DNA from: Sedimenticola sp.
GTDB taxonomy: Bacteria > Pseudomonadota > Gammaproteobacteria > Chromatiales > Chromatiaceae
DNA: 64,000 nt
Assembly: GCA_027083925.1 (NCBI GenBank)
Contig: JALWMK010000122.1
Span: forward strand, 1-64,000
Direction of reading: 5' to 3'
Shown here one piece after another: positions 23,531 through 28,267 of the stretch (positions are counted from its first letter, which is position 1; each line of letters opens with the position of its first letter). The notes under the pieces are model-generated. The model worked only from the letters and a program-made list of their open reading frames with translations. It had not been told where the DNA came from and did no database searches. Both the position numbers and the translations under genes were made by a program.

Positions 23531-23792
23531 GGAATTACCTCCGTTGCGGAATATTCTTTAGGATGACTGGCTTTCCGACCGGAATCGAAACGCCGGGAAT
23601 CTCGGTTACGGGTATTCTATCTGGCACGGGCAAAATACCTCAAGGAAGCCCGCGTTCAAGCTGACAACCATACTCTCGTTCGCCTTGAATCGCCATGCTT
23701 CTATAATCGAATTTTCCAATATGCTGATAGATGCGCCGTATACGCCCCTCAACAGGGAGAATAGTCTTCAGTTATTTTTTAAATTATCAACC

Positions 23793-24083
23793 ATGCTACT
23801 CAACGAACTTCAGGGCAAACGCTCAGTTATCCAGGCCCTCGGACAGCGTTACGGTGCGCATCATATCCGAGTGTTCGGCTCGGTAGCTCGCGGCGAGGAA
23901 CGTCCGGACAGTGACGTGGATTCCTTGGTGGAACTTCCCCGCGGTTATGATCTGTTTCGTCAGCGCCTGCCACTGACTGAAGCATTGTCTGATTTGTTAG
24001 AGCGCCCGGTCGAAGTCATACCTGAACATGAATTGAGTCCGTACATCCGTCACCAGGTACTGGATGAGGCTGTCGAACTTTGA
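23793..24083 (+). CDS. MNT-type nucleotidyltransferase (MntA-like antitoxin)
   Basis: GSX10DXD motif HHIRVFGSVARGEERPDSDVDSLVEL; probable ATG 23793 (MLLNEL; ORF track starts at 23685); stop overlaps the HEPN frame. Confidence 0.85.
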   Translation: MLLNELQGKRSVIQALGQRYGAHHIRVFGSVARGEERPDSDVDSLVELPRGYDLFRQRLPLTEALSDLLERPVEVIPEHELSPYIRHQVLDEAVEL

Positions 24084-24433
24084 GCAAATCCTGGCAGCCA
24101 TACGCGCATCACATTCTGGAGGCTATCGATAAGATCCAGCGGATTGAGCAACGCGGTGACTTGGTGCAAGATGAGATTCTTTATGATGCCGCTCTGCGCA
24201 ATTTACAGACCCTGTCCGAAGCGACATAGCGTTTGCCGGAGGCGCAAAAACAATCCTGTCCCCATATCCCCTGGCGCGAGATCAGTGGTTTTCGCAATAT
24301 TCTGGTACACAATTATCTGGGAAACATCGATCCCATGACGGTGAAATCGGTGACCGAACAACATCTTGAGCCATTGGCCGATTGTGTCCGGAAACTGCTC
24401 CAACAAGACGGCAACGAGTCAATAGAGTCCTGA
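24080..24433 (+). pseudogene. HEPN (DUF86/HepT-like) toxin gene with in-frame amber codon
   Basis: Frame from TTG 24080 reads LSKSWQPYAHHILEAIDKIQRIEQRGDLVQDEILYDAALRNLQTLSEAT*RLPEAQKQSCPHIPWREISGFRNILVHNYLGNIDP...; TAG at 24227-24229; HEPN RX4H motif RNILVH lies after the stop. Confidence 0.8.
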
Positions 24434-24505
24434 GCCGTTCTTGTCTTTGCAAAATGCGCAGATGGTTTTACTGTGGCTCCGTTTCTCCCAGCATCCAAAG
24501 GAAAC

Positions 24506-24529
24506 AAAACTGTGGTCTGTCCCCTATTA
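24506..24529. repeat. Solitary REP-like end, AAAACTGTGGTCTGTCCCCTATTA
   Basis: Identical 24-mer at 27543-27566 and near-identical reverse complement at 26750-26772, which flank the Y1 transposase. Confidence 0.85.
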
Positions 24530-24697
24530 CCGCATTTCTGGGCGGGTAAATATCCTGACCCAGGTTCAGGCCGAGAAAGAGATGCCGTGTCTGTGTTTGA
24601 AATTAGCGAGAAACATGAAATATCTGCAAAGCAATTGTTTGAGTTAGTATCGCGGGTCATGTCTTATGCGGAAACCGTCATCAATGAAAAAACTTAA
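24530..24697 (+). pseudogene. Remnant of a cassette ORF, C-terminal fragment
   Basis: Open frame ...GRERDAVSVFEISEKHEISAKQLFELVSRVMSYAETVINEKT* ends 17 nt before attC-like site 1; N-terminus replaced by the REP-like sequence. Confidence 0.35.
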
Positions 24698-24713
24698 GCT
24701 AAAGAGTGCAGCA

Positions 24714-24792
24714 CATAACAATGCCATAAACTCGGACCGCAAAAAGCTGCGCTGCGCTCCGCTTTTTGCGTCCGGTTATGGCTGGCGTTATG
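24714..24792 (+). other. Integron attC-like recombination site 1
   Basis: CATAACAA...ATAAACTCGGACC...GTCCGGTTATGGCTGGCGTTATG: outer (CATAAC/GTTATG) and inner (CGGAC/GTCCG) arms pair, as in R''-L''...L'-R'. Confidence 0.7.
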
Positions 24793-25301
24793 TGGTTTGG
24801 CTTCAGCGCAAAAAGTGCTGGCAGTTGTGTGCATCACGTTCAGCGCATAGTTTAGGCTTTGAGGGTGCCCTCGTTCTTGCAGTGTTCCCGCTCAGTCTGC
24901 CATGACAGTGGCATGAAATTGCATTATTGCATCGGCTCCGCAGCCACAATCACCAATGCAACTGCCCCGGCAACTTGGCATGGAAAAACCCTGTGTAACG
25001 TGGTCTAATCAAACAGGTGCCAGCATTGTGGGGCAATGCTCGGCAAGATCCGAAGGGCCGTCCAGGTAAGGCAGTGTTGTTCTTGGTGCTTCGTATCGGG
25101 CGCAGAAGAAATAGGGAGGTTTATCGTTTTGTTCAATAAAGCCAACGTCAGGTTTATTGCCACAATTCCTGTCGGCAGTGCATTCAACCACATAACAAGT
25201 CTCTCAACCGGACGCTGCGCTTCGCTCCGCGGTTGTGCAGGCGGCGAGCGTCGTGGTTCTTCCAACTGTCGTTGCAGCCTCAAGGGCGCCGGTTAGCTTC
25301 T
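24785..25301. repeat. Cassette unit A of a tandem duplication (517 bp)
   Basis: Runs GCGTTATG to GCGTTATG; nearly identical over most of its length to 25302-25819. Confidence 0.85.
25009..25191 (-). CDS. Hypothetical cassette protein, reverse-oriented (60 aa)
   Basis: GTG-start frame VECTADRNCGNKPDVGFIEQNDKPPYFFCARYEAPRTTLPYLDGPSDLAEHCPTMLAPV; 3 of 5 differences from copy B are synonymous in this frame. Confidence 0.3.
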   Translation of the reverse strand: MVECTADRNCGNKPDVGFIEQNDKPPYFFCARYEAPRTTLPYLDGPSDLAEHCPTMLAPV

Positions 25302-25309
25302 GCGTTATG
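25191..25309 (+). other. Integron attC-like recombination site 2
   Basis: CATAACAAGTCTCTCAACCGGACGC...GCGCCGGTTAGCTTCTGCGTTATG; outer CATAAC/GTTATG and inner CAACCGG/CCGGTT arms. Confidence 0.75.
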
Positions 25310-25819
25310 TGGTTTGGCTTCAGCGCAAAAAGTGCTGGCAGTTGTGTGCATCACGTTCAGCGCATAGTTTAGGCTTTGAGGGTGCCGTCGTTCTGGCAGC
25401 GTTGCTGCTCAGTCTGCCATGACAGTGGCATAAAATCGCATTTTTGCATCGGCTCCGCAGCCACAATCACCAATGCAACTGACCCGGCAACTTGGCATGG
25501 AAAAACCCTGTGTAACGTGTTCTAATCAAACAGGTGCCAGCATTGTGGGGCAATGCTCGGCAAGATCCGAAGGGCCGTCCAGGTAAGGTAGTGTTGTTCT
25601 TGGTGCTTCGTATCAGGCGCAGAAGAAATAGGGAGGTTTATCGTTTTGTTCAATAAAGCCAACATCAGGTTCATTGCCACAATTTCTGTCGGCAGTGCAT
25701 TCAACCACATAACAAGTCTCTCAACCGGACGCTGTGCTTCGCACCGCCGCTCGTGCTGGCGGCGAGTTGGTTGGCATTGCCCCCGTTTGGTGGCGTAGTG
25801 TGGGCGCCGGTTAGCTTCA
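25302..25819. repeat. Cassette unit B of a tandem duplication (518 bp)
   Basis: Near-copy of 24785-25301; attC variable part diverged, and the reverse ORF has a nonsense change (CGA to TGA). Confidence 0.85.
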
Positions 25820-25827
25820 GCGTTAGG
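25708..25827 (+). other. Integron attC-like recombination site 3
   Basis: CATAACAAGTCTCTCAACCGGACGC...GCGCCGGTTAGCTTCAGCGTTAGGC; right core GTTAGGC fits GTTRRRY. Confidence 0.75.
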
Positions 25828-25879
25828 CTAAAAACTCATACATCACATTATAATTTGTAAACTAATCAAAAGGTCAATA

Positions 25880-26749
25880 ATGGCTATACTTAATAACTTA
25901 CCTCAAAAGCCTTATAAAAAGTTTTTTGGGAGACAAAAGACAATAGAGCATATAAAGACTGTGCTTTTAGATGGAAATACATTTATCGCGTCAATTGATG
26001 GTGTTGGTGGGATTGGTAAAACAGCATTAGCATACTATTTTTGCGATGAAGTATTGTTAAATGATGATTGTCCTGAGAGCAATCGATTTGATTATATAAT
26101 TTGGATTACTGCAAAAGATACTGTATTCGATGTCAACACCGAAAAAAATATGATAAAACATGTTAAAAATGATTTTCTAGGTGTAGAAACATTAATTAAT
26201 ACAGTAATTGATACAACTAACTTTGATGATGAGTTGCGTAATAAAACATTTAAAGATAAAAAGAAATTTGTTGAAGATGAAATTCTAAAAAAAGAACCAA
26301 TATTCTTTGTTCTAGATAATCTAGAAAATATTCATGACCCAGTTTTTTTCGAATATATAACTAAAGAATTCAACCTATTTGCAGCAAATAATAGAAACCT
26401 AAAAGTATTAACAACGAGTAGAAGAAGAAAAAAAATTGCTGATTTTCCAATTGAAATTGAAGGGTTATGTGCTGATGATGCTCTAAATATGCTTCTTTTT
26501 CATGCTCATGAGAATAAAATTAATGACATTATAAATGCAACTGAACATAATAATCGGATACTTGTCACTAAGGTTGGAAATATACCACTAGGTGTTGAGT
26601 TTATAATTGGCCAAATGAAATTAGGTAAAAGCAGAGGGAAAATATACGAAGAATTAAATGGTTATCCATCACTAGAAGATAATATAAATGAAGCTGAAAA
26701 GAAAAAAAGAATGTCTGAGATAATAGCGTTCTCTTTTAAAGATATGCAA
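25880..26749 (+). pseudogene. STAND/NB-ARC-like NTPase, 3'-truncated by a Y1 transposase element
   Basis: FFGRQKTIEHIKTVLLDGNTFIASIDGVGGIGKTALAYYF (Walker A), EPIFFVLDNLENIHD (Walker B), LKVLTTSRRRKK; AT-rich; frame (ORF to 26803) runs into the element starting at 26750. Confidence 0.75.
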
Positions 26750-27566
26750 AATAGGGGACAGACCACGGTTTTTCGTGCTATGCTTCAGCCTGATCCCCAC
26801 TAACCAACAGTTGACCATGCCACGACGCCCAAGGATCGTTTTGCCAGGTGTTCCGCTGCATCTGATTCAGCGGGGAAATAATCGGCAGGCGTGTTTCTTT
26901 GAGGAGGATGACTACCGGTTCTATCTGGAGTGGTTGATTACCTATGCCAAGGATGCCGGGTGTGCGGTACATGCCTATGTGCTGATGACCAATCACGTCC
27001 ATCTGTTGCTTACGCCCACAACCGCTGGCGGCGCGGGTGAATTGATGAAGCGATTGGGGCAGCGGTATGTCCAATACGTCAACCGGATGTACCGACGCAG
27101 CGGAACCTTATGGGAGGGACGCTTCCGCTCGTGTCTGACGCAGGAGGATTCCTATGTATTGGGCTGTTATCGGTACATCGAACTCAATCCGGTGCGCGCG
27201 GGCATGGTCGGGCACCCAGGCGAGTACCGTTGGTCGAGTTACCGGGCAAATGCGCAAGGTGAGATGGAAGCGGGATTGCAAGCACACGCCTGTTATCGTG
27301 CCTTGGGAAAAGATAAGGAGAAGCGGCAGGCAGCTTACCGGGAACTGTTTCGCACCCAGCTCGATCCGGGCCTGGTGGATCAGGTTCGTGAGGCAACAAA
27401 CGGCAACTATGCCTTGGGCAGTTCCCGCTTTCAGGAAGAGGTGGGCAGAGCCTTGGGGCGCCGCGTTGTTCGCGGGAGATCCGGTCGACCAAAGAAACAG
27501 CCAAACACCGCCACAATGGCGCTGTTCGATTCTGACTGATTCAAAACTGTGGTCTGTCCCCTATTA
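26750..27566. mobile_element. REP-associated tyrosine transposase element with inverted flanks
   Basis: AATAGGGGACAGACCACGGTTTT (26750-26772) and AAAACTGTGGTCTGTCCCCTATTA (27543-27566) are near-perfect inverted repeats around the transposase. Confidence 0.85.
26817..27539 (+). CDS. REP-associated tyrosine transposase (Y1/IS200-like fold, TnpA_REP)
   Basis: MPRRPRIVLPGVPLHLIQRGNNRQACFFEEDDYRFYLEWL...HAYVLMTNHVHLLLTP (HUH) ...YVQYVNRMYRRSGTLWEGRFRSCL...YIELNPVRAGMV. Confidence 0.95.
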   Translation: MPRRPRIVLPGVPLHLIQRGNNRQACFFEEDDYRFYLEWLITYAKDAGCAVHAYVLMTNHVHLLLTPTTAGGAGELMKRLGQRYVQYVNRMYRRSGTLWEGRFRSCLTQEDSYVLGCYRYIELNPVRAGMVGHPGEYRWSSYRANAQGEMEAGLQAHACYRALGKDKEKRQAAYRELFRTQLDPGLVDQVREATNGNYALGSSRFQEEVGRALGRRVVRGRSGRPKKQPNTATMALFDSD

Positions 27567-27570
27567 CTAG

Positions 27571-27654
27571 AGAAACTCAGGAAATACCATCAGAATCATC
27601 AGCGCCCGTAAAGCGACCAAGAATGAACGTAGGTTCTACGAAGGTGGTGAATGA
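27571..27654 (+). pseudogene. BrnT toxin, C-terminal remnant
   Basis: Frame reads RNSGNTIRIISARKATKNERRFYEGGE*, a BrnT C-terminal signature; N-terminal part absent, replaced by the transposase element. Confidence 0.75.
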
Positions 27655-27878
27655 TGAAAAAAGAATATGATTTATCCAAAATGAAATCACGGAAGAACCC
27701 TTATGCTTCAAAGCTCAAGAAGCCAGTAACAATGAGGCTTAGTGAGGATGTTATTGATTATTTCAAAGACATGGCTGAAGAGTCTGGGGTTCCATATCAA
27801 AGTTTAATTAATTTATATCTCAGAGACTGTGTAGCGCAACACAGGAAAGTAGATATCACATGGCATAAACAGGCCTAA
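27651..27878 (+). CDS. brnA: BrnA family antitoxin
   Basis: 75 aa, KKPVTMRLSEDVIDYFKDMAEESGVPYQSLINLYLRDCVAQHRK; ATGA overlap with the BrnT remnant. Confidence 0.8.
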   Translation: MMKKEYDLSKMKSRKNPYASKLKKPVTMRLSEDVIDYFKDMAEESGVPYQSLINLYLRDCVAQHRKVDITWHKQA

Positions 27879-28132
27879 CACACGCCCTGAGGTAGTCCGT
27901 CAAGGAAAAACCGATTAATTTCCGAGTTCTTTAACCAGCGGAGAACCCTGGTAAGAGCTACTTCTTCTGCTTCACCCATTCTCTTCTCCGCGACTAAAAG
28001 CGCAGCATGCAGAGAAAAGGTTCAGCCTGACAGAGTGTGGTATATTTTGCGCTTACACTCCCTTGACAAGAGTCACGTCACCAGGAAAGGGCATGCTTGA
28101 AGCCACTAACAGATTGATTAACAAAAGAAAAA

Positions 28133-28228
28133 CCATCCTGTGCCTGCCTGCAGACCGCGTTATCAAAACTGACTGTAGAAGTGCTATAGCGGCACTTTGA
28201 TGCCTTGCATTAGGCAGGCACAGGATGG
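28133..28228 (+). other. Candidate structured element: 17-bp perfect inverted repeat with nested stems
   Basis: CCATCCTGTGCCTGCCT (28133-28149) / AGGCAGGCACAGGATGG (28212-28228); nested ATCAA/TTGAT (28162/28197) and AGTGC/GCACT (28180/28192). Confidence 0.5.
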
Positions 28229-28267
28229 CTGAACACGGCATATTAGGTGGCCGGGGTAATAGTATTC

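Follow-up and report, generated by a model that had tools for sequence, protein, structure and literature searches.

What is the gene that begins at position 25880 of this stretch of Sedimenticola DNA, and why does it break off 290 codons later against a transposase element? The window (the whole 64,000-nucleotide stretch of contig JALWMK010000122.1 that was analysed) carries here the first part of a gene for an NB-ARC-type STAND NTPase. The explanation we favour, which we regard as evenly poised between right and wrong, is that the fragment is a dead copy, carried as a cassette, of a gene for a rare one-gene bacterial NLR laid out like MalT, which probably has an RNase effector at its C-terminus and a presumed role in defence.

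The nature of the fragment itself can be stated plainly. This segment encodes a genuine NB-ARC/STAND NTPase core, as a preliminary description made from the sequence had proposed:

25880-26749, + strand: first 290 codons (the 5' third) of a gene for an NB-ARC/STAND NTPase, with a complete nucleotide-binding domain and its GxP motif

The ATG-initiated frame runs from 25880 to 26803 (307 aa), and its codons 1-290 end at 26749. Pfam NB-ARC matches residues 19-287 of the fragment at 40.6 bits (cut-off 23.5; E=2.3e-10). An NLP linker stands at the very start, together with FFGR, GVGGIGKT (Walker A), FFVLDNLEN (Walker B), a KVLTTSRRR strand and GNIPLG (GxP), and the core motifs are kept both in orthologues (60-64% identity) and in remote homologues. 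Codon differences between the fragment and both orthologues fall mostly at position 3, less often at position 1 and least at position 2, a pattern that marks the fragment as the remnant of a real gene on which purifying selection acted. Its GC content is 28.7% versus 58% on both flanks, in keeping with the horizontal gain already suggested for it. The winged helix and sensor, which lie C-terminal to the nucleotide-binding domain, are absent from the window copy: the cut falls in the first helix predicted for the winged-helix domain. Reduced to a nucleotide-binding domain alone, the window copy is almost certainly inactive.

What the complete gene looks like can be read from its orthologues. 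The genomes of 84,980 species were scanned with a three-sequence alignment (tblastn), and orthologue counts refer to the matches listed. Two clear orthologues were found, in a Thermocrinis metagenome-assembled genome (MAG; 63% identity by tblastn, 64% over the fragment alignment) and in Bacillus timonensis (59% and 60%). Their intact open reading frames (858 aa in Thermocrinis, 871 aa in B. timonensis) begin at the residue where the window gene begins and continue for about 575 aa beyond its break. Homologues therefore do not naturally end at this point, and the C-terminus is indeed missing from the window copy. A third orthologue, in a Nomurabacteria MAG (L046, 5950-7802), is truncated and internally disrupted, with 46% identity over residues 2-121, and directly adjoins cas2-cas1. 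The remaining matches listed reach at most 42% over short stretches and are mostly at 21-30%.

The family is rare, patchy and cross-phylum. In the tree, the window gene and the Thermocrinis and B. timonensis orthologues form one clade (support 100/96; the letter make-up of these three sequences is unlike that of the rest of the alignment), which spans Aquificota, Bacillota and the window's proteobacterial-type genome. Sampling of the family recovered one copy in 349 genomes of the Bacillus order, one in 136 of the Thermocrinis class and one in 384 of the Nomurabacteria class, each being the copy already known; a search of 868 genomes from the window's phylum gave none besides the window's own. 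The gene is AT-richer than its surroundings in every host. A direct search of genome contigs and viral contigs with the 290-aa fragment gave no match (the peptides chosen were variable), and no relatives were found in phages or viral contigs.

Both intact orthologues give Pfam NB-ARC matches at their N-terminal end (5e-13 and 2e-11) and weak TPR matches at 392-466. They begin directly at NLPxxPYKKFFGR, with no N-terminal effector before the NTPase. The layout of these proteins of about 860 aa is thus NB-ARC first, then a winged helix (predicted, with no supporting profile match), a long TPR-like superhelix and a C-terminal helical domain. An AlphaFold2 model of the Thermocrinis orthologue, built from a 3-row alignment (mean pLDDT 67), shows a confident helical superhelix at about 490-700 and a poor NB-ARC part. 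Its best Protein Data Bank (PDB) match, at E=2.5e-7, is 6mfv (PH0952, a STAND that senses through TPRs). As the TM-score over the whole model is low, at 0.14-0.17, the match supports domain content, not domain arrangement.

Over the last ~165 aa the two orthologues are 43% identical, yet ERNE[ST]FHSRL is kept. Within it, RNE[ST]FH (819-824 and 820-825, aligned) is the sole Rx4-6H motif in either orthologue, and in a separate model of the C-terminal domain it lies between two long helices, before the last long helix, a placement shared with HEPN RNases. HEPN RNases typically have a polar residue after the arginine of their motif, mostly N, D or H (PMC3710099), and both orthologues contain an Rx4-6H motif with a polar residue in this place. 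A conserved R[NDH]x3-5H arises by chance in 1.8% of joint column shuffles. Searches with the C-terminal domain alone gave no sequence relative on plasmids or in NCBIfam, PHROGs or the PDB. The domain is a putative HEPN RNase, an assignment to which we give even odds or slightly less because no profile or fold comparison confirms it.

The family could work much as better-known STANDs do. At rest, STANDs such as PH0952 and MalT are monomers that hold ADP and inhibit themselves, the NTPase being clamped by the TPR sensor and arm; binding of inducer and ATP leads to multimerization (PMC6468293). By analogy, the resting protein would be an ADP-bound monomer whose TPR sensor folds back onto its NTPase. 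A ligand derived from phage or from stress would bind the TPR region, ADP would be exchanged for ATP and the NB-ARC domains would oligomerize. The oligomer would bring the C-terminal HEPN-like domains together into an active RNase (if HEPN they are), and the dimerized RNases would cut RNA and stop translation or the infected cell (abortive infection). Both the sensing of a ligand and the anti-phage role are presumed here, the latter from family and layout. The window copy cannot perform this action, because everything from the winged helix onward was lost in a deletion with a transposable element at the junction, leaving only the nucleotide-binding domain.

Several observations weigh against this proposal. 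STANDs also act as transcription regulators. No HEPN profile in Pfam, NCBIfam, PADLOC or PHROGs matches the C-terminal domain, and its AlphaFold2 model, which is of poor quality (pLDDT 59.8), matches nothing in the PDB significantly. The neighbours of the intact orthologues, both of which are lone genes, are mostly ordinary: what we take by eye to be an aconitase and a P-type ATPase in Thermocrinis, and kinase-like and nucleotidyltransferase genes in B. timonensis. There is therefore no guilt by association, the sole exception being the truncated Nomurabacteria relative beside cas1-cas2.

These observations bear on two other readings of the intact family. In one, the protein is a defence STAND whose C-terminal domain is a sensor cap only; the effector would be a separate protein or the oligomer itself, and RNE[ST]FH would be coincidental. 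The lack of any HEPN profile match or significant fold match fits this, as does a chance rate of about 2% for the conserved motif. Yet neither intact locus has a conserved neighbour gene that could be the effector, and we consider this reading unlikely, if the most serious of the alternatives. In the other, the family is a MalT/PH0952-type STAND regulator with no defence role, sensing a metabolite through its TPR region and binding DNA or a partner through its C-terminal domain. The order of domains is that of MalT (NTPase first, TPR in the middle, output last), and the best structural match is PH0952, an archaeal STAND with a TPR sensor that is a predicted transcription factor. However, no helix-turn-helix (HTH) profile matches the C-terminal domain, a rare, patchy and cross-phylum distribution and single-gene insertions suit a metabolic regulator badly, and the tree places SLFN_AlbA_2 fusions as the closest NB-ARC relatives. 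We think such a regulator improbable.

Returning to a defence NLR with a C-terminal RNase, comparison with described systems helps to place it. PH0952/MalT/APAF1-type STANDs share the NB-ARC-like core, the winged helix and the TPR sensor, and the output domain of MalT is C-terminal, as in the intact orthologues; they differ in that nothing precedes the NTPase in the orthologues and that the C-terminal domain of the orthologues has no HTH profile match. In Avs (AVAST) and other bacterial NLRs, TPR-like repeats likewise follow a STAND NTPase on its C-terminal side. The effector of Avs and similar defence STANDs is usually N-terminal (PMC12931631), whereas the orthologues have no N-terminal effector. 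The preliminary description had named Avs among the anti-phage members of the STAND family; no PADLOC Avs model matches either the fragment or the intact orthologues, and membership is rejected. The nearest NB-ARC branch (91/90) consists of SLFN_AlbA_2-NB-ARC proteins (annotated 'RNA-binding domain-containing protein'; Rhizobium and Phaeobacter plasmids), which have the NLP linker and motifs of the window family but differ in their N-terminal AlbA_2 domain, an identity of about 24% and the absence of an aligned C-terminal domain. Tentatively, then, and with the chances somewhat against so full a claim, we propose an undescribed one-gene bacterial NLR family, NTPase first and C-terminal HEPN RNase effector last, the reverse of the common effector-first arrangement, that is sparse in Aquificota, Bacillota, Patescibacteria and the window's lineage, mobile and capturable by integrons.

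How, then, did one copy come to lie in this genome? The gene sits in a 4.5-kb island (about 23741-28250) flanked by what we take, from their open reading frames, to be qmoA-like and moaE-like genes. Two genomes of the same genus are collinear at both sides and lack the island; one of them has a sulfotransferase-like gene in its place. Within the island, the following features lie upstream of the gene:

24713-24793, + strand: attC site 1, 80% identical to an attC near the integron integrase on contig C93
24788-25304, no strand assigned: non-coding-looking cassette, copy 1
25190-25310, + strand: attC site 2
25305-25822, no strand assigned: non-coding-looking cassette, copy 2, 91.5% to copy 1, directly preceding the STAND cassette
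25707-25828, + strand: attC site 3, directly 5' of the STAND cassette; the attC of the preceding non-coding cassette, with R' box GTTAGGC
25823-25879, + strand: AT-rich leader at the 5' end of the STAND cassette, starting at the attC cut point G^TTAGGC and ending just before the ATG; TATAAT at 25849-25854

The L'' arm of all three sites, read by eye, has an extra unpaired base, as expected for +-strand cassettes, and site 3 has a 96% copy on another contig. Since site 3 ends in GTTAGGC and the STAND gene starts 52 bp past it, in cassette orientation, the cassette begins at 25823. The same genome encodes a full-length integron integrase (G000:C93:5296-6234; 492 bits, cut-off 265). The cassette position proposed earlier is thus borne out by three attC sites and an integrase: the STAND fragment is what remains of a horizontally acquired, integron-captured gene. 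It had also been suggested that an intact orthologue might be a cassette-borne gene. Intact orthologues do exist, but no attC-like sites flank either of them, so an attC context is rejected there and 'cassette-borne' describes the window copy only. No scored sigma-70 site was found on the + strand of the leader, and an Rfam search of the island gave no match.

Other parts of the integron system deserve mention. The cassette of about 517 bp without a recognizable gene occurs in three copies in two arrays of the genome (the third at G000:C106:5233-5764), 91-97% identical and with a body better conserved than the attC. Possibly this cassette serves as a promoter or has a regulatory function. On contig C106, a second integron integrase is degraded (L042, 6908-7630; N-terminal match, internal stop) and adjoins an array with several attC-like sites and one of these copies. 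At L043, 203-6237, the complete C93 integrase is followed by an array with an attC and with genes for a Ppl-like PHP-ATPase, an Eco47II-like restriction enzyme and a type II methyltransferase. These defence-type genes beside the integrase were counted for a defence reading of the STAND gene. At the island edge (23685-24433) lies a decayed HEPN/MNT toxin-antitoxin pair: an MNT nucleotidyltransferase and, after it, a broken HepT-like gene that PF01934 matches over the C-terminal half only.

The last part of the question is why the gene stops. Where the orthologues continue FSFKDMYETL, the window has FSFKDMQ followed by NRGQTT; from 26750 onward this is inverted-repeat sequence of a RAYT-type element:

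26750-26803, + strand: RAYT-derived codons appended to the broken frame (NRGQTTVFRAMLQPDPH, then stop)
26750-27565, + strand: RAYT-type element (RAYT: REP-associated Y1/HUH transposase), bounded by inverted repeats of 23 bp at 26750-26772 and 27543-27565
26775-27539, + strand: RAYT transposase frame (Pfam Y1_Tnp, 6.9e-11)
27566-27880, + strand: beheaded gene tail and intact brnA right of the element, ending with an attC-like R'' box GCCTAAC
27651-27878, + strand: brnA, intact (BrnA_antitoxin, 5.9e-10)
24505-24530, + strand: solo right end of the same element, beheading another cassette gene in the island

The best NCBIfam model for the transposase is REP_Tyr_transpos (60.5 bits, below the cut-off of 80), and the element is the sole full copy in the assembly. 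Contig C171 (L019, 758-813) has two tandem RAYT-end-like repeats (GTGGTCTGTCCCCTATTA) and no transposase, as expected of solo REP-like sequences. The preliminary description had the frame interrupted at 26750 by a Y1 element. Such an element does lie at the break, but simple insertion is rejected, as the two sides do not make one gene. The far side is a beheaded toxin-antitoxin operon (the tail at 27566 reads like BrnT), not the rest of the STAND gene, so DNA was also deleted. The simplest history is insertion plus deletion, the latter perhaps by recombination between RAYT ends. No attC of the cassette's own lies between 26749 and the element; the 3' attC was lost together with the 3' part of the gene.

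One may ask whether the join is an assembly chimera and the true gene intact in the organism, the genome being a draft of 176 contigs and the sequences left and right of the element not belonging together. However, the element is single-copy, so there is no repeat through which a false join could arise, same-genus chromosomes are collinear with the island at both of its edges, and the missing part is on no contig (a whole-genome search with an orthologue profile recovers the first 286 positions only), which makes a chimera very unlikely. Equally hard to credit is a working stand-alone P-loop protein of 307 aa: its 290 codons have no stop or frameshift and the shared part bears the codon signature of selection, but it has no winged helix, no sensor and no output domain, its last codons derive from a transposon, and it stops where neither full-length orthologue does.

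Integron cassettes are an established reservoir of phage-defence genes, and their role as stores of anti-phage cassettes has already been published (Darracq 2025; Kieffer 2025; Getz; reviewed in PMC12409362). The setting is therefore no novelty. The STAND cassette resembles those in carrying a defence-type gene and differs in that the reported ones are streamlined and small, whereas the STAND gene would be about 2.6 kb and the window copy is broken. What is new, as far as the libraries searched show, is the layout of the family and the capture of a gene of this size. A broken fragment has in this way led to a candidate that can be tested: a pair of intact orthologues of about 860 aa, unrecognized by the defence libraries used, PADLOC included, in a candidate family with an effector-last layout unlike that of Avs and a single conserved motif. 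It also shows that integron arrays, whose reported defence cassettes are small, can take up a STAND gene of large size, and that deletions associated with RAYT elements are a route by which such arrays decay.
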